This document shows, in pieces, positions 6,133 through 56,361 of a stretch of 64,000 bases of DNA (position 1 is the first letter of the stretch; every line of letters begins with the position of its first letter). The translations under genes and the position numbers were made by a program. Source of the stretch: Eucalyptus grandis (lineage: Eukaryota; Streptophyta; Magnoliopsida; Myrtales; Myrtaceae); assembly GCF_016545825.1 (NCBI RefSeq), contig NC_052613.1:56432833-56496832 (forward strand), written 5' to 3'. Below the pieces are notes generated by a model. The model made no database searches. It was not told the origin of the DNA and was given only the letters and a program-made list of their open reading frames with translations.

Positions 6133-6390
6133 TCATGCGGCCATCACACCCATCCTGGCGGGCGGTGGTGGCGGCAACATCCCCCTAAACACTCCATCTC
6201 GGCGAACGTGAACCAACAAAAACTCCTGAATGACTAGGCCCCCAGCCAGGCCCACATCGTACATGACCAGCACTCGAACTCGCACAAACGTTAGACCAGG
6301 AACGGCAATGCAATCAATCTCCGAACACTCTACCTCCACGTCAGATGGGAGGCCATAGAAGGTGCCCCGCGTGACAGTAGGGAGCGGCAT
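6133..6390 (-). pseudogene. LTR-borne conserved ORF, family A, frameshifted copy
   Basis: Starts with MPLPTVTRG and keeps the family core (GLPSDVEVEC, VMYDVGLAGG, VHVRRDG, RGMLPPPPP), but a frameshift near 6165 replaces the usual DxPGWV ending. Function unknown; no domain recognised. It lies about 120 bases downstream of a splice-donor-like GTAAGT in the LTR, as in the other copies. Intact 84-codon relatives lie at 16158-16409 and 55587-55838. Confidence 0.75.
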
Positions 6391-6584
6391 CTTTCTAATC
6401 TGAAATGTTGGTCCCCGAAGGGGTGAGTATAGCCACTCAGCAGGTAAAAGATCCAATAAACCACTAAATGCATCATATAATACAATCATAACAATCATAG
6501 CATAGTACATGTCATTCATACATCCAAGCATAACTTACCTTGCAGTCATGCATATGCCATCAAACCATATGTACATACATCCTC

Positions 6585-6830: not shown

Positions 6831-7663
6831 CTACTTTTATCTTTCAATTTGATCACCACATCTTTTTTCCCGGGACCAGTGTGGCATCCCAAAATTCAAG
6901 ACAAGCTCTAAGGTGTATTAAAGCTCGTAATTAGGTAATGAAATTACCTATGGTTTATGCTTTAGCCATTAGTCTCCTTTTAAGACTAAGTGATATGTGC
7001 TTGTGTTTATGAGATTTTAAATTAGATAAATCAATGATAATAATCTATGCTTGGCTATGCACTTTATAGATTAAATTCCTATAAATAAAATGTTACAAGA
7101 TTTTTGGCCATGTGAAATTTAGTAATTAAATTCTAAAAGGAAGAATAAGAAAGGGGAAAATTTGATTTTTATTTAGGTTTGGGCCTTAGGCCCAAAGGTG
7201 GATTTTAATGGGCCAAGTTGGCCGGCCCATTAGGGCCCATGTGACACCCCGAACCACCTAGGGTCGCCACAGGCACTTGGCGTTACACCTAATTACATCT
7301 CTTAGCTGAAGCGTCATAAATCATAGACAGAAATTTTTTTTTTGAAAGCGGTCCCAGTGCGACTCATTAGCGGAAGCAAAATAAAACATCATCATCTCTC
7401 CCCCTACCAACCATTATACAAATACACACCACTAATCACCATGATTAATAGACAAGCCACGACACTTTATTTACATATATTTTCAAGATGGGATTTCTTT
7501 GGGTCGATACATCAAAAGGAAAAGCCAGGACTCAGCCACGCCCGGCCTAAAACCCCAAAAAGAACCCTCGACCCGCTACAACACACGTGCAACAATCCCC
7601 ATCATCAGTGTCGGCTAAACTATCCCCAAAAAGATCCAGCTCCTTCTCGTCACGCACAGGCCC

Positions 7664-7915
7664 TCACACCCAACCCGGTGCATCTGGCGGTGGCGGCGGC
7701 AACATCCCTTGCATCACTCCATCGCGACGAATGTGGACGGAGATGAACTCCTAGACAATCGGGCCCCCAGCCAGGCCTACACCGTACATGAATAAACAGT
7801 GCACTCGAATATGCGTCAATCCAGGAACAGAAGGACAGCCAAACTCCTCGCACTCGACCTCAACATCGGATGGGAGACCGTAAAACACACCCCGCGTGAC
7901 GGCAGGGAGCGGCAT
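7664..7915 (-). pseudogene. LTR-borne conserved ORF, family A, single internal stop
   Basis: Exactly 84 codons from MPLPAVTRG to PDAPGWV and stop, the same length as the copies at 16158 and 55587. One codon is damaged: the conserved Gln after GGPIV is TAG (7751-7753), a C-to-T change of CAG. Otherwise the frame is open and the core GLPSDVEVECEEFGC is intact. No known domain is recognised; function unknown. Confidence 0.8.
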
Positions 7916-8104
7916 GCTGCTAATCTGAAATGTTGGTCCCCAAAAGGGGTGAGTACAACCACTCAACAGGTAAAGGAATCCAATAACCACTCAATGCATC
8001 ATACAAATCATACATGCATTCCAAGCATCACTTACCTTGAAGCCATGCATAGACTATCATGCATTGTCATCACAATCATAACACATACATGCATTCCATC
8101 ATGT

Positions 8105-8405
8105 CATACTCGTATCATCGTCATCATGACATCATCATATCATATCATGTATCATCATCATTATCATGCCATAGGTGATCATCATCATATCACATCATAC
8201 ATCATCATCATCATCATATCATGCATATCATCATGCCATAGGTGATCATCATCATCATGTCATATCATATCATGCATATCATCATGCCATAGGTGATCAT
8301 CATCATCATGTCATATCATATCATATGTGCACATCATCATCATATCATGCATATCATCATGCCATAGGTGATCATCACCATCATCATGTCATATCATATC
8401 ATGCA
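8105..8405 (-). repeat. CAT-rich minisatellite inside family-A LTR
   Basis: Tandem imperfect copies of a unit of about 51 bp containing 'catgccataggtgatcatc' and 'catatcatatcatgcatatc'. It corresponds in position to the repeats at 6585-6830, 15435-15630 and 55141-55440, with a different unit. Confidence 0.85.
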
Positions 8406-8514
8406 TGGTTCAATTTTCCACTTTTTAACTTTCCATTCGATCACCACATCACCCTTCCTCGGATCACCAATTTCATCTCATATTATACACTCGTGCCTCA
8501 TCCTGGCATCGCGA

Positions 8515-8790
8515 GAAAAACCTCCGGCATTCAGCCATTCCAGGCCACCGGGCATCCAGCCCCCCCACATTCCGGGCATCTCGCATCCCAACTGGCATCA
8601 CGAGGCATCCCCTCGAGCAAAGACCTCCGAGGCTTCCGGCATTTACACTCCCTGGCCGAGCATCCCACACCCCTACTGGCATCGCGAGGCATCCCCCTGG
8701 GCACAGACCTCCAGGGCTTCCGGCACCCCCAACTTTCCGGGCATCCTGAAACTCCCAGGGCCATCCGGCAATGTATCTCTATACATTCCG
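8515..8790 (-). repeat. degenerate GC-rich repeat block of family-A LTR
   Basis: Repeats of roughly 60 bp built from 'ggcatcacgaggcat', 'cagacctcc' and 'ttccggcat'. Related blocks occur at 900-1290, 15100-15330, 16860-17100 and 54780-55080, always next to the CAT minisatellite. No sign of protein coding; frames differ between copies. Confidence 0.7.
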
Positions 8791-10549
8791 GGCATTATCA
8801 TCCGCCACAACATTCTCCTCATTTAACATTATTCATGTTCACCGATTTCGGTCTCAATTTAGCATGGCATATGATGTAATGGCAATCAAAACCATATTCA
8901 GCATGGAATTTATACATGCATCTCAATTCATTGTCATGCATACATCAAGACCTCATCGTACATGCTACATGGTACAATAAAATTTATGGAATTTATGCCA
9001 ATTAAAGTAATCCATTTATCACACCCTTTTTACATTTATTTAAATTTCCAGCTTGTGCCATTTTCAAAAATACTAAATTTAATATCTATATAATTCTAAA
9101 AAATTATAAAAATTAAGGCAAGTGATAATCAAGACAATAGGATAATGAATTCCACACAAATCCACAATTCACACAAAACAGCATGAAATTTTCGGATGAA
9201 ATCAGAATGCACAGTTTCCAAAATAATTTGATTAAAATATCCATACGACCTCAAAAAATTACAAAATTTTACCTAGTTATAGCCAAGAGACTAACGTAGA
9301 TTTTTCATGAAGACTTTCAAGTCATATTCGTTTTAGATTAATTTCTGCAGTCTCACGAAGCTTCTGGATCCAACACAGAAACGTCCAGTGCATGCTTCTC
9401 CGAAATACTGAGTTTTCACCTACCTATTCTTCTTCATTTCCTCTAAAATTTGGATATTTTTTACATCAAGATGTTCTATACAAGTTTCATGAAGAGATCT
9501 AAGTCAAAAATCCAGAGTATAGTCGTCGTTTAGGTCCATGAAGTCTCAGGTGTCCTGTACTACATCTCCAGAATTACCGTCTCCAAGATTCAGTCGATTT
9601 ACTAGGTTATACTTGTTCATTTTGCTTCAAATTTGAGTATGTTGTATTTTAAGATGTCCCCTTCAACTTCCATGAAGGAATCGAAGAGAGATTATTAGCA
9701 CAACTCAACATGCAACCACAAATCCATCAAAAGGTCAGTGAAGTCGTTCCAGATCTGAGGTCTCCGTAGGATGAGATTTTAACCCCTCAAAGCTCCATAA
9801 TTTTCCAAAAAATTTGATTATGTTGCATTTTAAGATGTTAGATACAGCTTTCATGAAGAGATAGAAGTTAAAATCGAACTCTAAACATGCATGCAAGCTC
9901 TCACAAGTTTCTGACTCAAACAGTTTCTGCGAAAACATTCCAGATCTAGCATTTCCGTAGGATGAGTGTTTGACCCCTCAAATCTCTATAATTTTCCACA
10001 AAATTTGAGTATGTTGTATTTTAAGATGTTAGATACAACTTTCATGAAGAGATTGAAGTCAAAATCTGACTCTAAGCATGCATGCAAGCTCTCACAAAGT
10101 TCTGACTCGGACGGTTTTATACGAAAACAGCATGCAACCAAAACACATAGCTTCACTCCCATGCCTCCAAATAATCCTAGATTCCGACCATACATACAAA
10201 ACATTGGTGCAAGAGTAGGAAGTGGATTCCCAACTTGCCTCTAGACCACACGAACGGCGGCACATGGCGGCGAACACGGCACACGGCGGACGAGCGGCGG
10301 CGAACGGCGGCTCCTCCTCTCGGCTTCTCCTCCCTCTCGGCCACTCTCCCTCTCTCTCACGAAATCTCTCTCTCTCTCCCTCTCTTGGCCGAACAAAGCA
10401 ACCGGCCACTCTCTCTCTCTTCTTCCCTTTTATTCCCCCCATTTCCTAATCATTTGCAATGATTAGGTTGCCTCACCAATGGCCAATGCATGCCATCCCT
10501 CTCTAAGCCAATGCATGAAGACCTCTTGCCACTTGTCTTCATAATGGGC

Positions 10550-10690
10550 TTTTGGGCTTGGGCTTTTGGGCTTGGGCCGGCCACTCTTGGGCCTCCTCTT
10601 AGGCCGGTCGACAACCCCCTTTCGTGGGCCTAATTGGGCCGACTAGCTTGGCCCATCAAGGCTTTGGCCTATGGGCCTAAGGCCCATCCT
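10550..10690 (-). promoter_or_regulatory. GGCCCA/TGGGCC (site II-like) cluster in LTR U3
   Basis: Several TGGGCC/GGCCCA motifs lie about 300-430 bp from the LTR start and upstream of a TATA-like AATAAAAGG (about 10430). In plants this hexamer is the core of site II elements bound by TCP factors in proliferating tissue. The same cluster is conserved at 7195-7239 and 53055-53165. The role here is inferred, not shown. Confidence 0.5.
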
Positions 10691-10981
10691 AATAAAATTT
10701 AAAATTTCCTTTTTATAATTTCTTCTATGAATTTTAAATTTTAAATTCCACATGGCCAAATTCTTGTGAAATTTTATTTATAGGAATTTAATTCATAAGG
10801 TGCATGACCAAGCATAGATTATTATCATTAATCTATCTAATTTAGAATCTCATAAACACAAGCACAAATCACCTAATCAAAAAAAAGACTAATGGCTAAA
10901 GCATAGACCATAGGAGGTTTCATTACCTAATTACGAGCTTTAATACACCTTAGAGCTTGTCTTGAATTTTGGGATGCCACA

Positions 10982-10997
10982 ATTCTCCCCTCCTTAG
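10982..10997 (-). other. polypurine tract of family-A element
   Basis: The minus strand reads AAGGAGGGGAGAAT directly before the LTR start TGTGGCATCC. This is the plus-strand priming site expected at the 3' end of the internal domain. Confidence 0.85.
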
Positions 10998-12510
10998 AGA
11001 ATTTCGTCCTCGAAATTAGACACCACTCGTGCCTTCTTGAAACAAATAAGGGTACTTTCCTTCATCTGATCTTCACTTTCCCATGTGGCTTCCTCCATAT
11101 CATGATGTCGCCATAATACCTTAACCAGAGGAATCTTCTTAGTCCTAAGAATTTGCTCCTTTCGATCCAATATCTGCACAGGTTCTTCAATGTACCTTAC
11201 TTTCTCATCCACTTTGATGGCTTCATGATCGAGTATGTGACTAGGATCCGGCTGGTACTTCCTCAACATTGATACATGAAACACATCATGCAAATTTCCC
11301 AACTTAGGAGGTAGCGCTAAACGATAAGCTACATCCCCTATCTTTTCGAGTATTTCTAAAGGTCCAGCAAATCTAGGGCTTAACTTACCCTTCATCCCAA
11401 ATCGAGATATCCCTTTCATTGGAGATACCTTAAGGAATACATGGTCTCCTACACTAAATTCTAAAAGCCTTCTACGCCTATCTGCGTAGCCTTTCTGTTT
11501 ACTCTAAGCTGTTTTAAGTCTTTCTCTGATAATTTCAACAGCCTCAGTGGTAACTTGTACCAGTTCAGGTCCTGTCAATTTCCTCTCACCTACTTCATTC
11601 CAAATGCATGTGAGTCTTACATCTCCTTCCATATAATGCTTCATAGGGAGCCATGCCGATACTTTTTTGAAAACTATTATTATAGGCAAACTCCACCAAA
11701 TGCAATCTTTCATCCCAATTTTCTTTGAAATCAATTACACAAGCCCTTAACATATCCTCTAATATCTGGATTACTCTTTCGATTGACCATCTGCAGGGAT
11801 GAAAAGCAGTACTAAAGCGAAAGCTTAGTCCCTAATGCAATTTGAAGACTTTGCCAAAAATTCGAAGTAAACCTCGAATCCCGATATGAAGTAATGGTCA
11901 CTGGAACACCATGTAAGCGTACCAGTTGACTTACATACATGTCCGCATACTTATCCATTGGGTAGTCCATGCGAATCGCTAAGAAATGAGCCGATTTAGT
12001 CAAACGGTCCACTATTACCCAGATAGAATCATGGCCACTTGATGTCCTTGGCAATCCTTGCACAAAGTCCATCGTTATATGCTCCCATTTCCATTCAAGA
12101 ATGTCTAATGGTCTCAAGAGTCCTGCGGGTTTTCGATGCTCGCTACTTGCCGGCACGTCAAACATTGAGAAACGTACTTAGTTTGTATCTGCCTTCATAC
12201 CATTCCACCAAAATTGCTGACGCAAATTCCTGTACATCTTTGTACTACCTGGGTGGATACTATAATTACTCTTATGTGCCTCCGAAAAAATTTCCTTCCT
12301 TAATTCCTCATTGTCGGGAACATAAAGTCGTCCTTGACATCTTACTATTCCATCATCAGAGACTTGAAATTCCGATCTTTTTCCTAAAAATACAGTATCT
12401 TTCACTTTCAAAATCTCTGGGTCAGATTCTTGCAGGATTTTAATTTTCTGGATAATCTCGGGTTCTATTCTTAATGCACTAAGCATACCAAGAAGGCAGT
12501 CCATTTTCAA
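10994..12510 (-). pseudogene. integrase with chromodomain-like tail, Ty3/gypsy (broken)
   Basis: Integrase inserts the element cDNA into the genome. The minus-strand frames run in order: N-terminal HHCC-like region (12510-12178, with 'HKSNYSIHPGSTKMYRNLR'); catalytic core (12165-11812, with TMDFVQGLP carrying the first Asp and a degenerate ITSYRDSRFTS around the second); a further core/C-terminal part (11734-11504, GERKLTGPELVQ); and the C-terminal domain (11419-10994) with the GPFEIL-type motif GPLEILEKIGDVAYRL and a tail VKVLWRHHDMEEATWE. That tail resembles the chromodomain-like end of Tekay/Del chromoviruses. At least three frame breaks make it non-functional. The lineage call rests on motif memory only. 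Confidence 0.85.
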
Positions 12511-12516
12511 TTTAAA

Positions 12517-13714
12517 TTACGAGTCTGCTACAGACTTTAACAACCCCCATTCTGCCATCCTTAAACTGGCCATTTCCACAGCTGACTTACGACTAAGAGC
12601 ATCCGCTACTCTTTTTGCTTTCCCTAGATGATATATTATCTCACAATCATAATCCTTTAACAACTCCATCCACCTCCTTTGTCTCATGTTCAACTCCTTT
12701 TGTGAGAACAGATACTTCAAGCTCTTATGATCCATATAAATTTCAAACTTTTCCCCATACAAATAGTGTCTCCATATCTTTAAGGCAAACACTATAACTG
12801 CTAGTTCTAAATCATGCGTCGGGTAATTCAGTTCATGGGGTTTCAATTGTCTAGATGCATAGGCTACGACCTTGCTATGTTGCATCAAAACACATCCCAG
12901 TCCTTTGTGAGATGCATCACTATACACTATAAAACCATCAGGTTCAGTCGGTATAGTTAGAATTGGAGCCGAGGTCAATTTCCTTTTAAGCTCCTGGAAA
13001 CTCCTTTCACATTCCCCATTCCATTCAAATTTCACATTCTTTCGGGTCAACTTGGTTAAAGGTCCTGCCAGCCTTGAAAATCCTTCAATGAACGTCCTAT
13101 AATAACCAGCCAGTCCTAAGAAACTTCGTATTTCAGTAGGTGTCGTCGGTCTCGGCCAATTTATTACCATCTCAACTTTAGTCGGGTCTCTTTGCAATTC
13201 CTTCTCCTGATACCACATGCCCTAAAAATATTATCTGGTCCAACCAGAACTCACACTTACTAAACTTGGCATACAACTTATGCTCTCTCAAGGTCTGCAA
13301 AACTATCTTCAAATGTTGCTCATGCTCTTTAGGCCCTTTTGAATATACCAGAATATCATCAATAAAAACAATCACAAACTGGTCTAAATAAGGCTGAAAT
13401 ATTCTATTCATCAGATCCATAAATGTAGCCGGCGCGTTAATCAATCCAAATGGCATAACAAGGAACTCGTAGTGTCCATAACGAGTCCTAAAGGCAGTCT
13501 TAGGAATGTCCTCCTTCTTAATTCTCAACTGATGGTATCCCAACCTTAAGTCAATCTTAGAGAAGACCGAACTTCCCTGGAGTTGGTCAAATAGGTCATC
13601 AATCCTAGGAAAAGGATACTTATTTTTAATGGTCACCTGGTTCAGCTGCCTATAGTCAATGCACAAGCGCATCGATCCATCTTTCTTTTCACAAGCAAGA
13701 CCGGTGCACCCCAA
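12517..13714 (-). pseudogene. reverse transcriptase and RNase H, Ty3/gypsy (frameshifted)
   Basis: The enzyme copies element RNA into DNA and degrades the RNA strand. RT lies in 13714-13178: [47 protein letters not shown] and the catalytic FIDDILVYS are all visible. A frame change near 13200 leads to RNase H in 13218-12517, with [16 protein letters not shown] linking to [35 protein letters not shown] and DALSRKS. The catalytic residues are largely preserved, so decay is moderate. It follows the gag-protease frame and precedes integrase, the normal gypsy order. Confidence 0.92.
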
Positions 13715-14850
13715 GGTGAAGCACTTGGTCTAATGAATCCCTTGTCAAGCAACTCCTGCAGTTGCACTTTCAACTCCTTCAATTCAACTAAGGCCATCCT
13801 ATATGGGGCTTTTATATTGGTTCATTCGTGCATTAATTCAATTTCAAATTCAATCTCCCGCTCTAGCGGCAATCCAAGCAATTCCTCAGGGAATACATCT
13901 TGAAATTCGTTAACTACACGAACTTCCTCAAGTTTAGGTTCCTTCTTTGCAAAATCTTTAACTATGGCCAGGTATCCTTGACATCCTTTGTCAAGTAACC
14001 TACAGGCTTCTACTGCCGAAATAAGTGCTACAGGAAGATGGGTCTGACCTCCTAAAAATTCACAACTAGACTGATCAGGTAAAACGAATTGAACCACTCT
14101 TCTGTAACAATCCATTCTAGCCCGATATTTACGAAGCCAATCCATTCCTATAATAACATCAAAATCATACATAGCCATTACAACCAAGTCTATTTCCATA
14201 TCTTTTCCTCCCATTGATATCTTACAATTTCCATATACCAGCGTAGACAATACCATATCCTTTAAAGGCGTGGAAACACAAAGAGGCGTCTCAAGAGGCA
14301 TAACTTCTATCTTATTCAAACGTCTATATCTTTCAGACACAAATGAATGCGTTGCACCCGTATCAAACAATGCATATGCCTTTTCATTATTGATAAGGAT
14401 CGTACCTGAGATAACATTCTTGGAAGCTTCCGCTTCCTCTTGGGTGACCGCATACGCCCTTCCTTGTGCTGGTGGCCTCTGAGGATTTCCTTGTGGGTTT
14501 GATCTAACAGCACTTTGATATCCCTGTTGCACCGAGCCAACACTCACTTGCGACCTCTCTTGTGGGCAACTTCTCCTAAGATGACCCACTTGTCCACAAC
14601 CAAAACATTTCAGTCGTCCAGGGCAAGGTCCTGGGCCATGTCGCCCATTACACTTTTGACAAACACCAGGCTGATAGGGCGCTTTCCCTATATTCAGACC
14701 ACTTCTTGCTCCCCCAAAATTTCCAAAATTACCCTTCTTCTTCACATTCCAAGTTTGACCTTGTACCTTATTGTGTGGAACTCTATTGGGCATGTGCTTT
14801 TCACGAAATTGCTATCTTATTGTCTTGTCTAGCACATGTCTTAATTTCAT
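13715..14850 (-). pseudogene. gag C-terminus and aspartic protease, Ty3/gypsy (5'-truncated)
   Basis: The open frame 14793-13822 begins with basic residues, then a zinc knuckle pair (CQKCNGRHGPGPC and CFGCGQVGHLRRSC), then protease with the catalytic AYALFDTGATHSFVS and the downstream VIIGMDWLRKY, ending in the linker to RT (ELLGLPLEREIEFEIELMHE). The capsid half of gag and the whole 5' LTR are missing: similarity stops near 14850, where plus-strand LTR sequence begins. In-frame coding can be followed upstream of the Met at 14793 across one TAG. Confidence 0.88.
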
Positions 14851-15630: not shown

Positions 15631-16157
15631 ATGATGATGACGTATGATATGATATGTTGATGACATGATGATGATGACATGTGTATGATATGATGATGTC
15701 ATGATGATGATGGTATGGGTATGACATGATGATGATGACATGTGTATGATATGATGATGTCATGATGACGATGATATGGGTATGACATGATGATGATGAC
15801 GTATGATATGATATGATGATGACATGATGATGATGATATGTCTATGACATAATGATGATATGCATGTATGATATGATGATGACCTATGATATGATGATAC
15901 ATGTGTATGACATGATGATGGCGACCTATGACATGACGACATGTATGTGTTATGATTGTGATGAAGATGTGTGATGGTATATGCATGGCTTCAAGGTAAG
16001 TGATGCCTGTCTTCAAGGTAAGTGATGCCTGGAATGCATGTATGACATGTATTATGCTATGATTGTATTGTTTGATGCTTTGAGTGGTTATCGGATCTTT
16101 TACCTGCTAAGTGGCTGTACTCACCCCTTTTGGGGACCAACATTTCATATTAGTAGG

Positions 16158-16409
16158 ATGCCGCTCCCTACTGTCACGAGGGGCGTGTTTTACGGTCTAC
16201 CTTCTGATGTAGAGGTCGAGTGCGAGGAGTTTCATTGTCCTTCCGTTCTCGGACTGATGTATATTCGAGTGCACTGTTTAGTTATGTACGATGTGGGCCT
16301 GGCTGGGGGCCCTGTTGTCCAGGAGTTCATATCCGTCCATGTTCGCCGAGATGGAGTGATGCGTGGGATGTTGCCACCGCCACCGCTTGATGCACCGGGA
16401 TGGGTGTGA
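16158..16409 (+). CDS. LTR-borne conserved ORF, family A (intact, function unknown)
   Basis: 84 codons including the stop, from MPLPTVTRG to LDAPGWV. Conserved blocks: FYGLPSDVEVEC, VMYDVGLAGGP, EF.SVHVRRDG, RGMLPPPP and the PGWV terminus. There is no signal peptide, membrane segment or known domain. The Met was chosen because the same position is Met in all four family-A copies. The open frame extends upstream to 16038, but that part crosses a predicted intron: GTAAGT donors at 15996 and 16018, with the usual TTTCAG acceptor mutated to TTTCAT and an alternative AG at 16155-16156. Compared with the copy at 55587, 29 codons differ only synonymously and 15 change the amino acid. Confidence 0.7.
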   Translation: MPLPTVTRGVFYGLPSDVEVECEEFHCPSVLGLMYIRVHCLVMYDVGLAGGPVVQEFISVHVRRDGVMRGMLPPPPLDAPGWV

Positions 16410-22395: not shown

Positions 22396-25300
22396 TCATA
22401 AGTGGCGTTCATAGTATTCGAGCTTGTGAGTTATGTGTGGGATATGAGCAATCTTGTACCAGTCCTCGCCTGCATCTTTTTTACACCTCTCTTCCAAATT
22501 TTGGCAACCTGCGATTTTTAGGTGACTAAGGGACGCAAGACTTTGCATTCCTTCAGGTAATGATGCCAACAAGGGGCACCGGATTATTTCAAGTTGTTGA
22601 AGTGATTGAAGGGCCTCAATATGCTCTGGCAAAACCTTCAATTTTAAACATTTTTTAATAGAAAGATGCTCGAGATTTTTGACTTGTAGAAGCCACCATG
22701 GGAGAGATGCTAGTTTGGGAACACCAAGGATGTCCACAAACCGGAGACTCTCAAGTCCTTGTGAATCTTTGACGTTGTCGCTTTCACCTTTGGATAAATC
22801 CAGCTCCTCACAATTGGAAAAAGAAAGATGCACAAGGTTTGACAGATGATGCACACCTGAGAGGGAAGTTAACCGAGGACAGTCACTGATGCCAAGACGT
22901 TCAAGTGAAGTGAGACTCTGCAATGGCAAACATTCTAGAAACTCCATTTTCGAGATATCCAGATTCTTCAACTTGTTATGGCCAAATATCTGATTTATCA
23001 ATTCTCGGTTGACCTCCCTCAAATTCAACTCCTCAAGATGTGGAGTTTGTGGCATGGCTTTCAAGTTTTCACAGTAACGGATCTCTAATTTCAACAGACT
23101 AGGAAATAATGTTGTTGAAGTGGACGAATGGCCTGACTCAATGTATTTCACTTCAGGAAGCCTCCAAATCTCTAAAGACTTGAGGTGAGGTAGCTGGCCT
23201 AGTTGAGGGAGATGTTTACATTTTCCGCATCTTAGCAAGCGTACCTCAACTAAATTTGGCAAGGAAACGACAAGGCTTCCCATCATCCAATTTGGAAAGC
23301 TCTTACCTTCGTATCCGTCGATTGTCAACTTCTGCAGATTTGAGTTCGGCATCAGTTTATCTAATAGATCTTTATCTGTATCGCCAATTGCTGCATCATC
23401 AGTATCGAGATAGCTCCATTTAAGTATCAAAGATTCCAGAAAACGCTTCCCTTTCAAGTTCGCCGCCATGGATTCTGCTATTGCATCTTGTGAGTGTCCC
23501 AAATTTTCAATGCTAAGGCTTTCCCGGATGTCATTAAGCCCATTTAGCTCCCCAAGTCCACAATACTTCTTAACAAGAGCTTTGCCTTTGGTAAAATGAA
23601 GCGTGTTAGCCTATGCAAAGAACTCAATTGCCCTAGTCCATGTGGCACATAACTCAGACTATAACAATAATCTATGTCTAGATTTTGAAGACTGACCAAC
23701 TTTTTTATACCACTTGGCAATTCTTCAAGGGCAGAGCAACCTTGGAGATTAAGTGTTTGCAAATTTTGAAATCTCGTAATGGAGTTAGGGAGCCTTTTAA
23801 GTGTATTATTGTGAGAGAGATCGAGATATGTGAGATGCTTCAACTTACAAATGGACCTTGGCACCTTCTTGACAATTGCGGCATGCAAATCTAAGATGCG
23901 CAACCTCTTAAAACTTTGAATGAGCTGGCATAGATCTACTTCACTTGTTGGTTTTCTTTGCTCCATTTCATGAGACGTAGGCACGGAAAGAAATGTTCTC
24001 AGTGAACGTGCTTTCAAGAGTAAGATTGGAAATTCACCCATCAAATTGGAAGTTAAACCATGTGATATATGACGAATTCTTTCAGGTATGTATTTTGGAT
24101 CATCCCTTGCCACCCAATACTCGAACCCAGCAACTACACAGGCTAGATCATGCATCAAAGCAGGAATCTTGCATGTCTCCTTGTTCATGAATGAATCTTT
24201 TTGAAAATCTTGGAAGAAGTTACCCCAAAGCAGGTCCATGAAATATTGATGACCAATGTCTTCTAAATGCCGATTTCCATTCGATTGTTGGATAAATCCT
24301 TCTGCCATCCAAAGATTGACCAAAGTCTGCTTCTTTATCTCGTAATCTTTGGGAAACAATGAACAAAACGCAAAACATTTTTTCAAATGTGAAGGAAGAT
24401 TGTCATAACTGAGCTTAAGAATTAATGTTATGCCGTCTTCCCTTTGAGACACTTTTGGGAGCTCATTTTCTTTGAATTGCGCCCATTCATGCTTACTTTT
24501 ATTAAAGAGTAAATTCCCAATAGTTCGAAGAGCTAATGGAACCCCATAGCACTTTCTAGCTATATCTTTAACAAGAGCTAGCATGTCAGGATCTTGTAAC
24601 TCCTCTTCTTTACAACAAGCCGCTTGCATTAGTAATTCTAGAGATGCACTTTCAGACAAGCCCTCTAGAAGATAAGCCGGAGCAGTGCCGGTGATGTCCG
24701 CAACCAAAGGATGGCGTGTAGTTATAAGGATCTTGCTTCCTCTAGCACCTCTCAACAATAAAGTTTTCAAGCTTAGCCATGTTTCTTGTTCTACATTCCA
24801 CAAATCATCTAAAACTAAGAGGTATCTCTTTCCATCAATCTGTCCCATCAGTTCACTAATCAACAATTCCATCACACCTTCGGTTGGTTCTTTCTGCTTT
24901 GCAGAAGCTACCATATCTTTCACTATTTTTTTCATATTAAAGTCAATAGAGACACAAACCCACATTTTCAAGTTAAACTGTTTACTAACCATCTCATCAT
25001 TATACACACATTGAGCGAGAGCCGTTTTTCCAACCCCCCCAATACCAACTATTGGAAGGATAGAAAGATTCTCTTGCACATTTGAATCCAATAAAAATTT
25101 TATGACTGTCTTCTTATCATCATCTCTCCCTATAATATCTAGCCTCATTGTAAACGAATGCGTCTCTTCTCTTTTCCTCCACTCTCTCTTGGGGCGCTCG
25201 TCCAAGTGGAATTCCTTATCATACACAATGGCTTTTAGTCTCTCCCTCACTCCTCTAAGTTTGTAGCTCATCTTCATTTTAAAAGCAAGCTGGTTTGAAC

Positions 25301-25622
25301 TTGAGAAAAATATCCTTACCTCCTCCATCATTTCATAGTGGCCCCTCAATTCTCGTTGCATAGCTTCTGCATTGAATTCTTCAAGCAAGTCTTGCGTGTC
25401 ATAAAAAGCATCTTTAAGTTTATCAACCCAATCTTTGATTTGGGGATTCTTGTAGTATATCTCTTCTGCATGGCCCAGTACAGCTTGAATCATGGAGGCA
25501 ATGTCCCCGAGCGCCTCGAGTTCATGCTTGACACCCCACAACTTTCCAGCATTTTCTAGTGCTTGAGGAACCAGATTAGTGACGATCTTACTAGCAATAG
25601 GGGAGATGATAGCTTCCGCCAT
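22396..25622 (-). pseudogene. CC-NB-LRR disease resistance gene (CNL, RGA-like) with one frameshift
   Basis: Intracellular immune receptor of the CNL class, which senses pathogen effectors; NB-ARC works as an ADP/ATP switch. The first frame (25622-23544, 692 aa) has an N-terminal coiled-coil Rx-type domain (1-160; WVDKLKDAFYDTQDLLEEF at 65-83), then P-loop GIGGVGKT (193-200), kinase-2 LLVLDDLW (268-275), RNBS-B GSKILITTR (295-303), GLPL-type CYGVPLA (358-364), RNBS-D CFAFCSLFP (416-424), MHD (490-492), then LRRs from about 555. The second frame (23502-22396, 368 aa) continues the LRRs to a C-terminus at 22396. A one-base difference near 23585-23592 shifts the frame: the other frame reads directly into LGELNGLNDIRESLS, the expected continuation. 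Total would be about 1075 aa, normal for the family, with no intron. All NB motifs are intact, so this is a recent pseudogene, a truncated receptor, or an assembly error. The start Met is followed by MAEAII, typical of the family. Confidence 0.93.
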
Positions 25623-42187: not shown

Positions 42188-44512
42188 ATGTCTGATGTGT
42201 TCAGATCAATGGCTTCAGCCACAAAAAGCATATTTGCCGAGCTGAACAAAGGTGAAAAGCTCAATGGTGACAACTATGAAATATGGCACATGAAAATCCA
42301 ATATGTGCTGGAAGAGCAAGAGGCACTAGAAGCTCTTAACCTGACCATGGTAGAACCTGAAGATGGAAACACTGCGTAGCACAAGAGAGATAAGGAAGCA
42401 TTTGCTACATGGAAAAGAAAGAACTCTCTTGCTTGCATTACGTTGCTTAGGAGCATGGAAAATGATGTCATGCGAGAGTTTAGGCGTTTTGACAATGCCA
42501 AGGAAATGTGGGAAGCATTGGCAGCTAGATTTGGTCATACTTCGGTGACCAGACTGAGACAGCTCACTATTAGGTTTGACTCTTATAAGAAGCCTCATGG
42601 TCAGACCATGAAGCAACATCTTATAAAGATGTGAAACATGATTAATAAGCTGAAAGATGCTGGCCATGTCCTCACTGATGAGCAGCAAGTGCAAGCAGTG
42701 ATTCGTTCCTTGCCTCAGAGTTGGGAGCATATGAAGGTGCACCTGACCCATAATGAAAATATCAAAACCTTTGAGGATGCAGTGCGCCATCTTGAGCTAG
42801 AAGAGGATCGCCTCTTGGCGGCTAAGCCGGATGCTGAACTCTATCATGCTAGTTCTAGCTCACATGGAGCTTCGAGCTCCAAGCGCAAACGCCCCAACTG
42901 GTTTGATAAAGGGAAAGGCAAGGAAGCAGGTCCTTCAGGGAAGAAACCCAAGTTTAACCAACATGAAAGAGGAAAGCGTCCTCGCATGAAGAAGCTTGCA
43001 AGGGTGAAGTGTTACAACTGTGACAAGAATGGTCACTATGCTCGCGACTGTCGTGAGCTGAAGAAGGTAAACACCCCTTGTACTTTTCAGAACTTTGCTT
43101 TTGTGTCGAGTTTTGTATTCTTAACTGAGTCTAATCCTTTGTGGACTGTAGATTCAGGAGCGACAGACCATGTAGCGAAGGATAGAGAATCCTTCGTGGA
43201 ATTCCGACGAGTACCAACTGGAACTAAGTGGATCTATGTGGGAAACAACTCCAAAGCTGAAGTGAAAGGAATTGGCACATGCCAACTGAATATGCGTGGT
43301 GGACGCACTTTGTTCCTACATGATGTGTTGTATGCTCCGGAGATTCGTCGGAATTTAGTGTATGTTTTAGTGTTGGTTAAACTAGGTTTTAATATGAACT
43401 TCTATAATAGAGGTGTGGATTTGTTTTTGGATACAAATTACTATGGTTGTGGTTATTTTCTGGATGGTTTCATAGTATTAGATATTGACTATGTTAATGC
43501 AAATGTTTGTTATTCCCTTCTCACGTCTCCTAATACATATGATAATGATGTGAATGTGTGGCATGCTAGACTTGGTCACATTGGCCAACAACGTATGAAT
43601 AGACTAGCCAAAGAGGGCTTGTTGGGCAACATTGAAAAAGTCAATTTGCCCATATGTAAGTATTGCCTAGAAGGGAAAACGACTAGGAAACCATTTGGAA
43701 AAGGTAAAAGAGCTGAATTTCCTCTGCATTTAATCCATTCTGATGTCTGTGGTCCAATGAATATGAGAGGAAGGCATGGGGCTGTTTATTTCATCACTTT
43801 TATAGATGATTATACTCGATTCGGATATGTCTATTTGATTTCTCATAAATCTGAAGCAATAAGTTGTTTCAAAAGGTTTATGAACCTGGTAGAAAATCAA
43901 TTAGACAAGAAAATAAAAGCATTGAGATCCGATCGAGGTCGAGAATATTTATCTGATGAGTTCAGAAAATTATGTGATGAAAAAGGAATAGAAAGACAGT
44001 TGTCTGTTCTATATACTCCTCAACAAAATGGTGTTACGGAGAGAAGAAACAGAACCCTACTTGAAATGGTTAGGTCCATGATGGCGCATGCTAACTTACC
44101 TATTACTTTTTGGAGTGATGCGTTGTTAACTGCTGCTTATATACTTAACCGGGTGCCTTCCAAATCAGTTACTTCCACTCCATATGAGTTATGGACAGGT
44201 AGAAAAACAGACTTAAGTTTTCTTAAGCCATGGGGTTGTGCTGCCTATACACATGAGTCCTCTCACAAGTTTGGGAAATTAGGTCTCAAAGGAAAGAAGA
44301 GTATTTTCATAAGATACTCGGAACACTCGAAAGGGTATGTGTTCATAGGTGAGCAGGAAAGTGGGAGTATAACTGAATTTGAATCACGGGATGTCACATT
44401 CTTAGAGGATGAATTTCCTAAGAAGGGCGAAATAGGGAAGATCACTCCCTATTTGAAACCTTGGATCAAGATAATGATATTAGTGGAGTTCGTCCAAGTG
44501 GGAGTAATATGA
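42188..44512 (+). pseudogene. copia gag-protease-integrase polyprotein (two stops)
   Basis: One continuous frame, start probably MASATKSIFAELNKGEKL (42209). Capsid region to about 42800, interrupted by TAG at 42377-42379 and TGA at 42632-42634 (a Trp codon in the expected context). Then the nucleocapsid knuckle CYNCDKNGHYARDC (about 43012), protease WTVDSGATDHV (about 43140), GAG-pre-integrase HARLGHIG...CKYCLEGK (43560-43680), and integrase core with LIHSDVCGPM, LRSDRGREYLSDEF and NGVTERRNRTLLEM, the D-D-E triad intact. The frame shifts near 44460. Order protease-integrase-RT is diagnostic of copia. Confidence 0.93.
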
Positions 44513-46285
44513 GAAGTGATGAATTGAATTCAACTCATTCTCAATTACAACCACATAATGAGACGACATCATCATTATCTAATCCAAGTGGGAGCATAAT
44601 AGGGAATGATGTGCAAAGTGTACAATCTCCCATACGGCGAACAAGTCGCCAAAGTATTCCCCGTCGACGTTTTGACATTGAAGGGAAACTTTTATGATTG
44701 CTCCACAAGATGAGGATGAGCCAAGAAATATTAATGAGGCTCGAATTGCCCTAGTAAGGAAAAATGGATTCATGCAATGGAAGAGGAAATGGAGTCAATG
44801 AAATCAAACCAAGTTTGGGAACTGGTTGATCTTCCAAAAGGACACAAAGCTATTGGGAATAAGTGGGTTCTCAAAATAAAGCGAAAGGCTGATGGCTCGA
44901 TAGAAAGGCATAAGGCTCGCCTTGTGGCGAAGGGGTATAATCAACAGGAAGGAATTGATTATGAAGATACGTTTTTTCCTGTAGTGAGATTTACCTCGAT
45001 TCGCATTATTCTGGCAATAGTGGCTAGTATGGATCTTGAGTTACATCAAATGGATGTAAAGACTGTTTTCCTTAATGGAGAATTAGAGGAAGAAATATAT
45101 ATGGAACAACCTGCTGGTTTCATAGTGAAAGGCCAAGAAGAAAAGGTATGTCGACTTTTGAGGTCGATATATGGCCTTAAACAGTCGTCAAGACAATGGT
45201 ATATACGTTTTCATTATGCCATAATGGCATATGATTTTACAATGATTGATGAGGATCATTGTGTATATATCAAAAGATCCAAGGATCAATTTGTGATCAT
45301 ATCATTATATGTTGATGATATACTAATTGCCGAAAGTAATATGGAGTTAGTTCATACTGTCAAGAGTTGGTTGTCTTCCAACTTTGAGATGAAGGATATG
45401 GGTGAGGCTACATACATTCTTGGAGTTAAGATTTCAAGAGATCGCTCGAAAAGATCGTTGTCTCTTTCGCAAGAAACATATATAAATAAGGTTCTTGAAC
45501 GATTTCGTATGCAAGATTGTAAACCTATAGACACTCCTATTGCAAAAGGTGAAGGATTGAGCCATAGAGGCGTGTCCAAGGACTCCACAAGAGAAGGAAC
45601 AAATGAAACATGTTCCTTATGGTAGTGCTGTTGGGAGCTTGATATACGCTATGATGTGTACAAGACCCGACATATGTTTTGCAGTTGGAATGGTGAGTAG
45701 ATACCAATCCAATCCGGGTCCAAAGCACATTGGAAAGCCGTTAAGAGAATACCGAGGTATCTGAAGGGAACTGCTGATTACAAGTTGAATTACCAAGAAA
45801 ATGATCTGCGACTTGAAGGCTATTTAGATGCTGATTGGGGAGGAGATTTAGATGAAAGAAAATCTACCTCAGGATTTGCTTTCTTGCTGAACAATGGCGC
45901 CATATCATGGAGTAGTAAGAAGCAAACGTGTATAGCCTTATCCACGATGGAAGCTGACTTCGTGGCATTATCAGCAGCAGTACAAGAAGGAGTTTGGTTT
46001 AAGAGTTTTTTGGATCATTTAGGTGTTATTGAGAAAGCTGCAAATCCATTATTGGTTAACTGTGATAGCCAAGCAGCTATAGCGTACACCAAAGATCCAA
46101 AATATCATGGCAAGACCAAACATATAGATACCAAGTATAACTTTGTCAAAGATATGGTTGCACGAAATGATGTGAACTTACAGTACATATCTACGCATAG
46201 AATGGTTGCAGATCCTATGACAAAACCAATACCTAGAGATGTGTTTTGTGGTCATGTAAAATCTCTAGGATTACGTAGAGTCTGA
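44461..46285 (+). pseudogene. copia reverse transcriptase and RNase H (frameshifted)
   Basis: 44461-44697 covers the integrase-RT linker (SQSIPRRRF-type serine-rich stretch, ending in a stop). RT is open at 44777-45625: VWELVDLPKGHKAIGNKWV, RLVAKGYNQQEGIDYEDTF, QMDVKTVFLNGELEEEIYM, SIYGLKQSSRQW and the catalytic SLYVDDILIA. A frameshift after 45600 is followed by PYGSAVGSLIYAMMCTRPDI. RNase H, 45785-46285, has LDADWGGDLDERKSTSGF, ISWSSKKQ and TMEADFVALS, and ends at GLRRV. Most catalytic residues survive. Confidence 0.93.
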
Positions 46286-50885: not shown

Positions 50886-53800
50886 CCTTTGTAGTGTCAA
50901 AACCCGACACTTAGGATTTTTCTAATTAAATATCAAAATTCCACAATTTTGGAATAAATATCCAAATTCACAATTACCACTCATCTTGCACAATTTAGCA
51001 TTCAATTGCATAAACTAAACAAACCATTGCAATCAGTATGAAATTTCAGTCACCGACTATGATATAAAGTATAATTTCCAGAAAATAATAAATAATTAAA
51101 TAAATGCAATTAAATACCAAAAATATAAACTTAAGCCGAAATACTTAATTAAACGCCCGAACGGGGGGGATTTATGAATCTATCTAGATAAATAGCACAA
51201 TCCATCTAGTGCTTAATTAGGCTACTTTAACCACTTAACATGCATAATTGATTAATTAAATCACTAATCCATTATAACTAACCACCTAAACCCTAATTGA
51301 CCTAAGCTAATCACCCCTTAAGCATCATTAACTCCCTAAGCATAGTTTAGCAAGTAAACTCACCAGTTTAGCGTTCCGATGAGTTCATGATGATGGCGAC
51401 TTGGAGGCAGGCAATAACCAAGCCCACGACGACACCAACCAAGGTTTGGAAGGGCTCGGAAAAGCTTTACGACACCTCACGGCCCGGTTGGAACTTCGGC
51501 TCTATCCAAGGCTCGAAGGAGCTAAACCGAGCGGTTCGGTTGGCTGGAACGGCCAAGGCGAGTGGCTACGAGCTAGCGGGGTGACATCGGGCTAGACCGC
51601 AACGGTGGCTTGGTTTCTAGGCGAGCTCAATGGTTGAGCGAACGGGATGGGGCTTCGGGAAGGCAAGGACACGAGCAGGAAGCCGACGGTGCTGGTTCAG
51701 CTTGCGGGTGGCAACAACGGCGCACGGTTGGTGCGGGGGAGCTCGGACGGTAGCAGGGGGCGGTCGACCAGCAAGGGAGGGAGCTGCTCTATTTTCCTTT
51801 GGTTTTTGGAGCTCAAACTGGACAACAATGGGGAAAGTAGAGCCAAGGAAGAAGAGGGAGTGCTTAGCTGAAGGGGGGATCCTAAATGGCCTCCAACTCT
51901 TCAACACATGCCCAATTCACTCATTGCTTGCCCTTACCCACCATCAGCCTTATCCTCAGCCATTTTCGTCCCTCAAGCTTCCCCAACAAGCTTCCCAAAT
52001 GGTCCAAAAGGTTGCTTCCCTCCAAGGCTACAAATTTGGACATTTGCCTCTTCAATTTCATTCAATTTCTCTTCAAATCAATCCAATTGAAGCCCAAACA
52101 ATTTAGCCAAGGTGCCTACATCACAATCCACATTTTCCCTCATCAATTGAACCAACTTGAATCCCAAAAATCCACCAAAAAATGGTCCCTCAAATTTCCC
52201 AGTCCAAAATAACCTTACTTTGAATTTTTGCCAAAAATCCCCATTTGCAGAAATATCTTCGGAGGATGAATCGACGTTCCTAAAATGAATCGTGACATGA
52301 CAGAACTTTCAATTTCTGAAATCGGGTTTAAATTAACGGTTAATTTCAATCAAGTGCTATTTTAGCATGACCTAACCTACCGGGTAGCTTTTAGGAATTT
52401 TTAGTGCAATTGACCCATAGTCGATTATTTTGGAGCCACATTGTATATCTTCGACACATTGACGATTCTCGGTTGTCGTGAAAATCTCGAGGTTTGAAAT
52501 ACGAGACATAGGGTACCAAAATGACAGAAAAATCGGTCTAGTGCCGATCGACGAGACTTTTGCAATTAGGTGGAATCACCCACACTTAATCACATGGCTC
52601 GGTCGAGTCGACCTATCTCTCATCTCTAATCGATTTTTAATTATGTCATAATAACCCTTGTAAATTAGCATGGTTGAGCAGTCGGTTCCTGGTCGAATTC
52701 TCAAGTCTATTGCGTTTAGATTCCTTAATAGCTTCACCTGATGACTAGTTATCCCATGAGTGATCAGCTTAGGTGTGGCATCCCGAAAATTCAAAGCCAA
52801 GCCTTAAGGTGTGTTAAATGTCTTTAATTAGGTGATAGAATTTTATGGCTTATGCTTTAGCCAATTTACCCTTGTATTTGATGAATTTTGCTTGTGATTG
52901 TGGAAATTTAAATTTAATTAGTTAATGCTTGGCCATATGACTTAAATTTCAATAACTAAAATATCCCAAGACTTTGGCCAAGATGAAATTTGAATTTAGA
53001 AATATTTATAGAAAAGAATTCAAAAAAAAAAAGAGAAAAAGGGTTAAAATTCGAAATGGGCCTTGGACCCATTAGCCTAAAGCTTGGTGGGCCAAGCTAG
53101 TCGGCCCATTGGGCCCAAGAGATGGCTGTCGACCAGCCCAAGGAAGAGTGGCCGGTTGGGCCAAAGCCCAAGCCCATTTAATTCAAAAACAAATTACAAG
53201 TGGCCAAAGGAAGAGCATGCATTGGCCATTGGTGAGGTGAGTTAATCCTTGCAAATGATGGGCTTTTGGGGGAATAAAAGGAGGGAGGAGAGAGAAGTGG
53301 CCGGCTCCTTTGCTTCATTTGGCCGAGAAAAGAGAGAGGGTGAGAGAGAGAGAGAGAAATCACAAGTGAGAGGGAGAGACCGAGAGGGAAGGAGGCGGAG
53401 CCGAGAGGGAGGTGCTGCCGTTCGTCCGCCGTCCGACCACCGTACGCCGCCGTGTGTTGCTGTGTGTTCATCTTGGAGGCAAGTGGGGTCCTTAACTTCT
53501 CTTGCATGTCTGTTTTGTTGGTTTCATGTTAGATTTTAGGTGTGGTTTGGGCGAAGAACCGAGGTAAGGGTTGAATGTGTTCAAGTTATGTGACTGTTTT
53601 CGTTCGGTTTGTGGTAGTCAGTACCTTATTCGAGCTTGCATGTGTGTTTTGAGTGCGATTTTGGCTTCGGTGTCTTCATAAAAGTTGAAGCTAACATCTT
53701 GTAGTATGACATACTCGAATTTCATGGAAAACGATGGTGATATGAGGGGTCAAAAGCTCTGTTATATGGAGACCTCAGATCCGCGAAATCTTCACTGACC

Positions 53801-54494
53801 TTTTGTTGATTTCTTGGTTGCATGTTGATTTTTGTTGGAGATATCACCTTGTTGTCTTCATGAAAGTTGTTGGTAACATCCTAAAATACAACATACTCAA
53901 ATTTTAAGAGAAACAAATGAGTATAGCCTAGTGAATCGGCTAGATCTTTGAGACGGTTGGTTCTGTTGAAGTATACCGAGACACCCGAGACTTTAAGGAC
54001 TTAAAAGAGGATCATACTTTGGTTATTTAACCTAGATCTCTTCATAAAACTTGTAAAGGACACATTGATACATAACATACTCGAATTTCAGAGGAAAATA
54101 AAGGGATTTGATGGGTCAAACCTAAGTTTTTCGGTGATATGTACTCTGGACGAAACGGTAGAGGTTCCAGAAGCTTCGTGGAGTTGTATCAATTAATCTA
54201 TGAAGAATTTGGCTTAGGGTTCTTCATGAAAAATGTACGAAAATGCGTTGGTTATCACCCTGTAAAATTTCGTAATTTTTGGAGGCCATATGAGTATTTT
54301 AATCGAATTAATTTGAAAACTGTGCAATCTGGCCATTTTCCGAATGTTAAGTGCTATTTTGTGGAAAATTGAGAAATTATGAAAAATGCAAATTGACCAT
54401 GAATTTTGCATAAAATTGTGATTCTAATTGTTTAGTGATTGTTTAAATATTATGATTTTGGGAAAATCATAAATATTAAATGAAATGTTTATTT

Positions 54495-54552
54495 ATAAAA
54501 ATAATAATAAATTAATAATATAATAATATAATAATAATATAATAAAATAATA

Positions 54553-54591
<39 letters not shown>
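54495..54591 (+). repeat. (TAA/AAT)n microsatellite
   Basis: Interrupted ATA/TAA runs ending in a clean array of about ten AAT units. It lies within the solo family-A LTR. Confidence 0.92.
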
Positions 54592-54592
<1 letters not shown>

Positions 54593-55140
54593 GATTATTT
54601 TATTAGCCATGTGTTCCATTGAATTTATGATGCATTGTTATATGACATAGATGCATGTATGATCATGAATTGTGATGCATGTGCGTGATTCATATGCCAT
54701 GTAATAATAATAAGATTAAAAGGAAGGTGAATGTGGAAGTGGTATGTGAGTAAGGGGTTGTGGCGGAGGATGTTGTCTGGTGGCCTGGTGGCGTAATTCC
54801 AGAGATTCCCTGGGAGTTTCAGGATGCCCGGAATGTGGGGGCCGGAAGCCTGTCGGGAGGTTTCGCCCGAAGGGAGTGACTCGCGATGCCAGGATTGGGG
54901 TGCGAGATCCCCGGCTAGAAGGGTAAAGGCCGGAAGCCCTGTCAGAGGTTTCTGCCCGAAGGGAATGCCTCGTGATGCTAGTTGAGATGCGAGATGCCCG
55001 GAATGTGGGGGGCTCCAGTGGCCATGAGATGGTTGGAATCTTGGGATCCCCGTCGGAGGTTTTCGCCGAAGGGATGGTGATGATGGTGAATTTGATGATT
55101 TGAGAAAAGATAATGTGGGGATCAATTGATAAGTAAAAGT

Positions 55141-55445
55141 GGCTAATGATGATATGATATGCATGGTGATGCATGGCTAATGATGATATGATGTGATATG
55201 CATGGTGATGCATGGCTAATGATGATATGATATGCATGGTGATGCATGGCTAATGATGATATGATGTGATATGCATGGTGATGCATGGCTAATGATGATA
55301 TGATATGCATGGTGATGCATGGCTAATGATGATATGATATGCATGGTGATGCATGGCTAATGATGATATGATGTGATATGCATGGTGATGCATGGCTAAT
55401 GATGATATGATATGATATGCATGGTGATGCATGGCTAATGATGCA
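55141..55445 (+). repeat. 34/39-bp minisatellite in family-A LTR
   Basis: Units start at 55141, 55175, 55214, 55248, 55287, 55321, 55355, 55394 and (partial) 55433, alternating 34 and 39 bp depending on an extra GTGAT or ATGAT. All contain GCATGGTGATGCATGG. Near-identity between units indicates recent homogenisation. Confidence 0.95.
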
Positions 55446-55586
55446 TGAATACTCTTGACATCAAAAAGGTAAGCAATGTCTGCATTGTATGATGGTATGC
55501 ATGGTGCACTGAGTTGTTATTGGATTTCCCTATTTGCTGAGTGGTTGTACTCACCCCTTTTGGGGATAACATTTCAGATTAGCACT

Positions 55587-55838
55587 ATGCCGCTACCTGC
55601 TGTTTCGCGTGGGGTATTTTACGGTCTACCGTCTGATGTTGAGGTGGAGTGTACGGAGATAGATTGTCCCTCTGTGCCCGGATTGACGTTTATCCGAGTG
55701 CGATGCTTAGTTATGTATGATATCGGCCTGGCTGGGGGCCCTGTCATACAAGAGTTCCTGTCTGTGCACGTTCGACGGGATGGAGCGATGCGAGGGATGC
55801 TGCCGCCGCCACCACCTGACACACCGGGTTGGGTGTGA
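55587..55838 (+). CDS. LTR-borne conserved ORF, family A (intact, function unknown)
   Basis: 84 codons including the stop: MPLPAVSRGVFYGLPSDVEV at the start, a VMYDIGLAGGP core, SVHVRRDG, RGMLPPPPP and DTPGWV at the end. It has no recognisable domain, signal peptide or membrane segment; the C-terminus is proline-rich. A predicted intron 55469-55577 (GTAAGC to TTTCAG, 109 nt) ends 9 bases before the ATG, so the ORF would head the second exon of an LTR-initiated transcript. The longer open frame from 55476 lies in that intron. Pairwise with 16158-16409: 39 identical sense codons, 29 synonymous-only, 15 replacement, no indel. Confidence 0.72.
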   Translation: MPLPAVSRGVFYGLPSDVEVECTEIDCPSVPGLTFIRVRCLVMYDIGLAGGPVIQEFLSVHVRRDGAMRGMLPPPPPDTPGWV

Positions 55839-56361
55839 GACCTGCGCGCAAGGAGTAAGAGCTAGATCACTTTTTGATGTAGATAGTTGACGCTGGTGAT
55901 GGGAGGGTTTGTGTTCATGTGATGTTAAGGGTCGGAGTCCCTTTTTGAGATTTTAGGTAGGACATGGCAGAGTCCTAACCTTTCTGGTTTGTGTACCGAC
56001 CCGAAGGAAAACCCCATCTCGCTATATGTATGTATGTAAGCAAAGCGTCAACGTTATTTATAAAATCATGATGTTTAGCTGGTGTGTATTTGTATCATGG
56101 GTAGAAGGGAGATAGATGACGATGTGAATTTTGCTTCCGCTATGAGTCGCGCGTGGGACCGCTTTAAAAAAAATGCCTGTAATCGGCAAGGCTTAATTTA
56201 GCCAAGAGATAGAGATGGTAAAAGATGTAACACCGGCGCTCGGTGACGACTCGTGAAGGGTTCGGGGTGTCACATTAGGGAAAAGAACGAGAGGCGTGGC
56301 AATGAAAAGCTCGACTTATTCAATCGAAAACAGAACCCAAAAATTAGGATATCACAAGACT

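Follow-up and report, generated by a model that had tools for sequence, protein, structure and literature searches.

A small open reading frame inside the LTRs of a Eucalyptus grandis retrotransposon family evolved under purifying selection and may belong to a spliced gene

The window analysed here, the whole 64-kb stretch of Eucalyptus grandis DNA, carries four copies of a short open reading frame (ORF) located in long terminal repeats (LTRs) of one family. Copy A (55587..55838, +) is intact, encodes 83 residues plus a stop codon and lies inside the solo LTR A; its product is MPLPAVSRGVFYGLPSDVEVECTEIDCPSVPGLTFIRVRCLVMYDIGLAGGPVIQEFLSVHVRRDGAMRGMLPPPPPDTPGWV. Copy B (16158..16409, +) is likewise open and lies in a 5′-truncated LTR, with the AG of the acceptor-like site that precedes it changed to AT. 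On the opposite strand, copy C (7664..7915, −), located inside the 3′ LTR C, retains the full length of 252 bp and is interrupted by a stop at codon 55, while copy D (6133..6390, −) bears a 5-nt deletion near its 3′ end that alters the last residues. A profile search of all six frames of the window returned the same four copies, and the next best match scored 2.0 bits. The initial annotation had assigned one ORF to four LTR copies, and this was borne out, with A starting at 55587 and B at 16158 on the forward strand and C at 7915 and D at 6390 on the reverse strand. It had also reported three copies of exactly 252 bp; the length held, since A, B and C aligned without a gap across 252 columns, but C is not open because of its stop at codon 55. 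We also considered an N-terminal extension as coding sequence, as the frame stays open before the ATG in A and D. Copies B and C have one nucleotide more before the ATG, showing that the frame upstream of it is not kept, and the extension was rejected.

LTR A (52774..56274, +) is 3501 bp long, starts with TGTGGCATCC and ends with GGGGTGTCACA. Reading of its junctions identified TTAGG as a 5-bp target site duplication at 52769-52773 and 56275-56279. Relatives of the surrounding repeat stop at 52762-52772 and restart at 56270-56281, and because they break off and resume at the edges of LTR A, we concluded that it is a solo LTR within another repeat. LTR C (7240..10981, −; 3742 bp) is a 3′ LTR, in which the pol stop, a purine-rich tract GGAGGGGAGAAT and then TGTGGCATCC follow one another, so that a Ty3/gypsy pol and its purine tract are contiguous with an LTR of the ORF-bearing family. 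A domain scan of the broken pol just upstream of it (10994..14793, −; four ORF pieces) revealed CCHC, RVP_2 protease, reverse transcriptase (RVT_1), RNase H and SH3_Tf2-1 domains. The last four of these exceeded the Pfam cut-off, and the Chromo family matched at E 0.00031 and 21 bits, under its cut-off of 25.1. As LTR C directly follows the Ty3/gypsy pol stop and purine tract, the LTR family is assigned by its predicted domains to a chromodomain-type Ty3/gypsy element, with the Chromo match itself sub-threshold. By its type of sequence, this carrier is presumably Tekay/Del-like. One E. grandis Tekay family listed in PMC4535378 has LTRs of 555/552 bp, too short to match the LTR family described here.

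LTR B is truncated at its 5′ end, and LTR D is truncated as well. No complete two-LTR element of the ORF-bearing family was found within the 64-kb window, which holds a solo LTR, the 3′ LTR of a damaged element and truncated copies; that each element would carry the ORF twice is what we infer from these pieces. Inverted fragments of the same family abut at two places. At 5738-7244, D (−) is followed by an LTR-start fragment at 6880-7244 (+) and then by LTR C (−), and at 14815-19263, B (+, 5′ truncated) adjoins a further LTR, E (−, 3′ truncated). These arrangements look like rearrangement, not simple nesting.

Searches of protein databases returned 16 relatives of the 83-residue protein, seven of them named and nine from unnamed contigs. 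All named relatives are hypothetical proteins of E. grandis (EUGRSUZ_L00463, F02275, J01420, G00526, B01610, A01253 and H04763); they are 61-95% identical to the ORF A protein (P0001), with 95% for the best, and belong to the same protein family. Among all 16, nine share the length of 83 residues exactly, three are N-terminally extended and four are shorter. We aligned the 16 relatives with P0001 and copies B and D, omitting copy C because of its stop, and in the resulting 19 rows the 83-residue core had no internal gap, even with relatives down to 61% identity. Eleven residues were invariant among the 19 sequences (Y12, V20, C22, E24, C27, L33, Y44, G47, E56, F57 and H61), and C22, C27 and H61 could serve as candidate metal ligands. 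Since gene callers list intact ORFs only, the relatives are intact partly for that reason, and databases that favour intact ORFs show which residues stay, not how often the ORF survives.

The initial annotation had recognised no known domain in this protein, and our searches agree. Of four queries, Pfam yielded no family for three and, for the fourth, one match below threshold, at 15.2 bits where 25 was required, which fell in the upstream extension of copy D; the best match in a PDB sequence search reached E 0.28. No homology to a known accessory protein was found in these Pfam and PDB sequence searches, and no convincing fold match was found for the 83-residue protein. Identical sets of four strands were predicted for two subfamilies of the protein.

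To characterise selection on the ORF, we compared its copies codon by codon. Between A and B, 29 of 83 codons differ only synonymously and 15 change the residue, exactly as counted by hand in the initial annotation, and the differences fall 12/7/32 on the three codon positions. The accompanying estimate of dN/dS, roughly 0.2, was right in lying well below 1; maximum likelihood gave a lower omega of 0.116. Pairwise omega for the remaining pairs was 0.141 (AC), 0.067 (AD), 0.186 (BC), 0.184 (BD) and 0.217 (CD), and the likelihood ratio (LR) against omega=1 spanned 18.8-58.3 over the six pairs. When the same fits were made in the two shifted forward frames, omega was 1.16-5.73 in 12 of 12 cases. 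A joint codon model of the four copies, fitted on the best of three topologies, gave omega 0.135, kappa 3.61 and LR 85.2 in the ORF frame, compared with omega 1.54 (LR 2.7) in frame +1 and omega 3.22 (LR 20.8) in frame +2, the latter LR being in the direction expected if the true frame is elsewhere.

Substitutions were also simulated under neutrality, drawn from the downstream non-coding flank, for six pairs under two settings with 2000 runs each. The biased setting placed a methylation-like fourfold weight on CG/CNG sites together with a threefold transition boost. In none of the 12 settings did any of the 2000 runs yield a non-synonymous count as low as or lower than that observed, and third-position shares as high as or higher than observed arose in 0-3 of 2000, where the biased setting triples all transitions and the pairs with D receive changes spread over D-deleted columns. 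C-to-T decay as the cause of the third-position changes was thus ruled out by the methylation-like simulations. Between 3 and 33% of the neutral simulations were free of stops (15% and 8% for A/B), so the absence of stops alone is weak evidence of coding. Insertions and deletions told in the same direction as the codon fits: the ORF contains one distinct gap interval in 252 columns vs 27 in 451 columns downstream (one-sided binomial test on distinct gap intervals, p 6.7e-5), in line with the earlier remark that the surrounding LTR is richer in indels.

Conservation of a nucleotide-level signal, such as a packaging site, an RNA structure or a promoter, with the frame open by accident, would account for the ORF being more alike than the downstream flank in five of six pairs (identity 0.73-0.86 vs 0.61-0.80; C/D equal at 0.729 and 0.727) and for the conservation (0.72-0.90) of the 100-odd bases upstream of it, which include the acceptor-like region. 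However, third positions vary most, with 48 variable columns against 24 and 14 at first and second positions across 75 codons in the four copies, and the other forward frames are unconstrained, which makes this explanation very improbable. That the frame is a chance ORF within decaying repeats is more improbable still and can be set aside: the same LTRs do hold long antisense ORFs, and one of six codon fits on them gave omega near 0 (LR 19.0), but in their alignments identity is 29-48%, gap positions number 12-47 and differences are spread almost evenly over the codon positions (for example 72/62/83 and 40/30/41), whereas the DNA-aligned ORF is gap-free in three copies with a 12/7/32 distribution matched by 0 of 2000 simulations in 12 settings.

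These antisense ORFs lie in repeat-rich sequence at 54625-55164 (−), 8175-8879 (+) and 15037-15438 (−). Six protein-guided codon fits to such ORFs gave omega of 0.00, 0.34, 0.71, 0.49, 0.67 and 0.60, with LR of 19.0, 5.5, 1.8, 4.9, 1.5 and 3.1 in the same order. The outlier is the first (A1/C1), in which identity is 34%, gap positions number 28 and codon positions are flat at 72/62/83; for these reasons we take its fit as saturation, helped by the protein-guided alignment. We read the antisense ORFs as non-coding repeats, although the control is not fully clean. Together, the joint omega of 0.135 with LR 85.2 and the values above 1 in the shifted frames support the central claim of the initial annotation, that an LTR-encoded protein evolved under purifying selection, for an ORF of which three of the four window copies are damaged. 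Because B has lost the acceptor AG to AT, C has gained a stop and D has lost 5 nt, the constraint acted in lineages ancestral to the four copies and not necessarily on the copies themselves.

An acceptor-like region, two conserved donor-like sites and an ATG-poor leader suggest, as sequence features, that the LTR resembles a spliced gene. A TATA-like site, AATAAAAGG, marks the predicted promoter at 53273..53281 (+) in LTR A and occurs at the same place in LTR C; it was not found in LTR E or in another LTR, F. With the start assumed to lie 30 nt past this site, the predicted non-coding first exon (53303..53478, +) is GA-rich and has no ATG in 176 nt. ATGs before the donor numbered 0 in 176 nt in A, 1 in 166 in C, 0 in 180 in E and 0 in 180 in F, a total of 1 in 702 nt. 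Shuffles of the A leader contained 2.8 ATGs on average and 5.5% of them contained none, so the absence of ATGs from the A leader alone is weak evidence.

The predicted GC-type splice donor, GAG|GCAAGT (53479..53484, +), lies within GAGGCAAGT (at 53476 in A). When the diverged LTRs A, C, E and F were aligned together, no other internal stretch stayed invariant over such a length, and only the LTR terminus exceeded it. We presume from the general consensus that GAGGCAAGT fits a GC-type donor. The compared stretches of E and F end short of the ORF region, and their donor is not tied to the ORF. From this donor, a predicted GC-AG intron of 2099 nt (53479..55577, +) would contain 126 ATGs inside LTR A, all of which splicing would drop from the message. 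An alternative predicted intron is short, at 109 nt (55469..55577, +; AAG|GTAAGC...CAG). The motif AAGGTAAG occurs 109-153 nt upstream of the acceptor in A-D, with two occurrences in B; in LTRs A and C, no other site matches the general donor consensus at eight or more of nine positions. The acceptor-like region CTCACCCC...CATTTCAG (55550..55577, +) is conserved in A, C and D, with AT in place of AG in B; its distance from the ATG is 9 nt in A and C, and the alignment gives equal spacing in B and D.

A similar acceptor-like motif, CTCACCCCGTCGTGGGCTCAACATTTTCAG, was present at 5605-5634 (−) in the apparent tail of another LTR. The acceptor search patterns were written after this site had been seen, and the resulting chance figure of 0.00 is no independent test. 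The stretch at 5250-5634 (−) appears to be the tail of that different LTR, followed by a PBS-like TGGTATCAGAGC, presumably of the tRNA-Met type, and by a broken gag-like stretch; the 83-residue protein is not encoded after its acceptor-like motif. Past copy C of the ORF lies AATAAA, a candidate poly(A) signal (7466..7471, −), which B and D share at the corresponding position and LTR A lacks. In D, this region also reads as TATA-like (TATATAAATA). Two sets of repeats lie within LTR A: an ATG-rich tandem repeat of TGCATGGTGATGCATGGCTAATGATGATATGATA-like units at 55140-55450, inside the predicted intron, with similar ATG-rich repeats preceding the ORF in other copies, and CTTCATGAAAGTTGTTGGTAACATCCTAAAATACAACATACTCAAATTT-type repeats at 53660-54120, with relatives in C, E and F.

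We consider it probable, though by no means assured, that the ORF under purifying selection is part of an LTR that acts as a small self-contained spliced gene, and that its product is an accessory protein, which would act on the RNA of the element. A promoter near 53273 would drive a transcript with an ATG-poor leader exon near the LTR start, the ATG-crowded intron would be spliced out, and the leader would be joined to the acceptor, which ends 9 nt short of the ORF. With the GC donor in use, the ATG of the ORF would come first among those in the LTR A message; removal of the short 109-nt intron alone would leave the leader ATG-rich, and the two donors may be alternatives. An upstream transcription start would place the ORF in R, and every LTR, including a solo LTR, would form a complete gene; with a downstream start, the ORF would lie in U3 and be reached by splicing into the 3′ LTR. 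We favour the upstream start because it explains the conserved donor and the ATG-poor leader. Use of the splice sites, the promoter near 53273 and synthesis of the protein even from a solo LTR are predictions drawn from these motifs. Counting against the gene model are the consensus-based nature of the sites, the two competing donors, the lack of a TATA-like site in E and F, the lack of AATAAA in copy A, the one ATG in the C leader, the damage in three of four copies and the TATA-like reading of the AATAAA region, which puts the promoter downstream and the ORF in U3.

In the main competing explanation, to which we give a minor but appreciable chance, U3 does contain the ORF, and only the 3′ end of the genomic RNA serves for its expression: the acceptor in the 3′ LTR would be joined to a donor that lies in gag or the 5′ leader, and the TATA-like stretch some 200 nt past the ORF would act as promoter. 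Consistent with this arrangement, B, C and D each have a AATATATAAATAAA-type stretch beyond the ORF, and a conserved acceptor-like region immediately precedes the ORF. However, it offers no reason for GAGGCAAGT to be conserved, nor for the preceding GA-rich stretch with few ATGs or the TATA-like site at 53273, and its own TATA-like stretch includes AATAAA, where a poly(A) signal is expected. Translation of the ORF might otherwise serve mainly to control downstream gag, by reinitiation or shunting, with the peptide secondary; given an upstream promoter, the ORF would indeed be the first in the spliced leader before gag, but residues are constrained over the length of the ORF (omega 0.135, with two Cys and one His invariant), which translation control by itself would not require, and we regard this role as improbable.

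If the LTR is a spliced gene of its own, what its protein does is more conjectural. Because an element whose leader contains an intron has to export its unspliced RNA too, the protein might, by analogy, be CERV- or Rev-like, made from spliced RNA and aiding the nuclear exit of unspliced genomic RNA, an idea that we put forward as a doubtful one. No known RNA-binding or other domain that would support such a function was found in the protein; anti-silencing activity or a role as a capsid cofactor are alternatives. Tentative as well is the broader proposal that an intron-containing gene resides in each LTR, two per insertion and one per solo LTR, and encodes a trans-acting regulator of unspliced RNA. 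The genome would then be seeded with promoter-exon-intron-exon-poly(A) units, and loss of elements by LTR recombination would spare the accessory gene.

Coding sequence inside an LTR is known from MMTV sag and from part of HIV nef, where it is reached by splicing. The ORF described here resembles both in lying inside an LTR and differs from them in its plant Ty3/gypsy carrier, its lack of a Pfam match and a predicted intron within the LTR itself. In the plant LTR retrotransposons Ogre, EVADE and Bagy2, introns are generally located in the internal region. Splicing gives subgenomic RNAs in these elements, as it is predicted to do here, but our predicted intron falls within the LTR. Their spliced RNAs are described in the available sections of PMC12786077 (Ogre and EVADE) and PMC7264820 (Bagy2).

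The available sections of PMC7264820, a review, further describe plant additional ORFs (aORFs), among them env-like ORFs as well as those found in antisense orientation in Grande, RIRE2 and Retand. These are assigned to the internal region, and most of them sit between pol and the 3′ LTR; the phrases 'within/inside/in the LTR' have 0 occurrences in the main text of the review. Like the aORFs in those sections, ours is an extra conserved ORF beside gag-pol, present in many copies, here the four window copies and 16 database relatives. Unlike them, it does not occupy the internal region between LTRs, since it lies inside solo LTR A and 3′ LTR C, and is hence kept by solo LTRs. For the analogy of function proposed above, PMC10309623 reports that CERV of the Caenorhabditis elegans element Cer1 is made from spliced mRNA and is required for export of unspliced RNA. 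The proposed parallel comprises an accessory protein, a spliced LTR-retrotransposon mRNA and unspliced-RNA export, and is conjecture on our side; CERV is larger than the 83-residue protein (a phosphosite at S214 is named for it), and the likeness would be one of function. Among open-access titles and abstract openings searched with a limited set of terms, we found no description of an ORF or intron inside a plant LTR. As far as this literature was surveyed, an accessory ORF of an LTR element belongs to a known class, and what is new is its location inside a plant LTR with a predicted intron of its own.

LTRs usually count as regulatory sequence that does not code for protein; a protein-coding LTR makes a solo LTR possibly a gene, not a scar. 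The 83-residue unit is small, conserved and testable alone, offering a direct route to the roles of plant retrotransposon accessory proteins. The splice-like signals, absent from the initial annotation, suggest how the ORF could be expressed, and the GC-donor leader intron, if real, would help to explain the balance of spliced and unspliced RNA and the tolerance of more than 100 ATGs in the leader.

Elsewhere in the window, an ORF of 692 residues at 23544-25622 (−) contains Rx_N, NB-ARC, winged-helix and LRR domains and is of the resistance-gene type, and a separate ORF near it, at 22396-23502 (−), is LRR-like by appearance. Pieces of a Copia-type element lie at 42638-46285 (+), where the first ORF carries gag, CCHC and integrase domains and the later ORFs resemble reverse transcriptase and RNase H.
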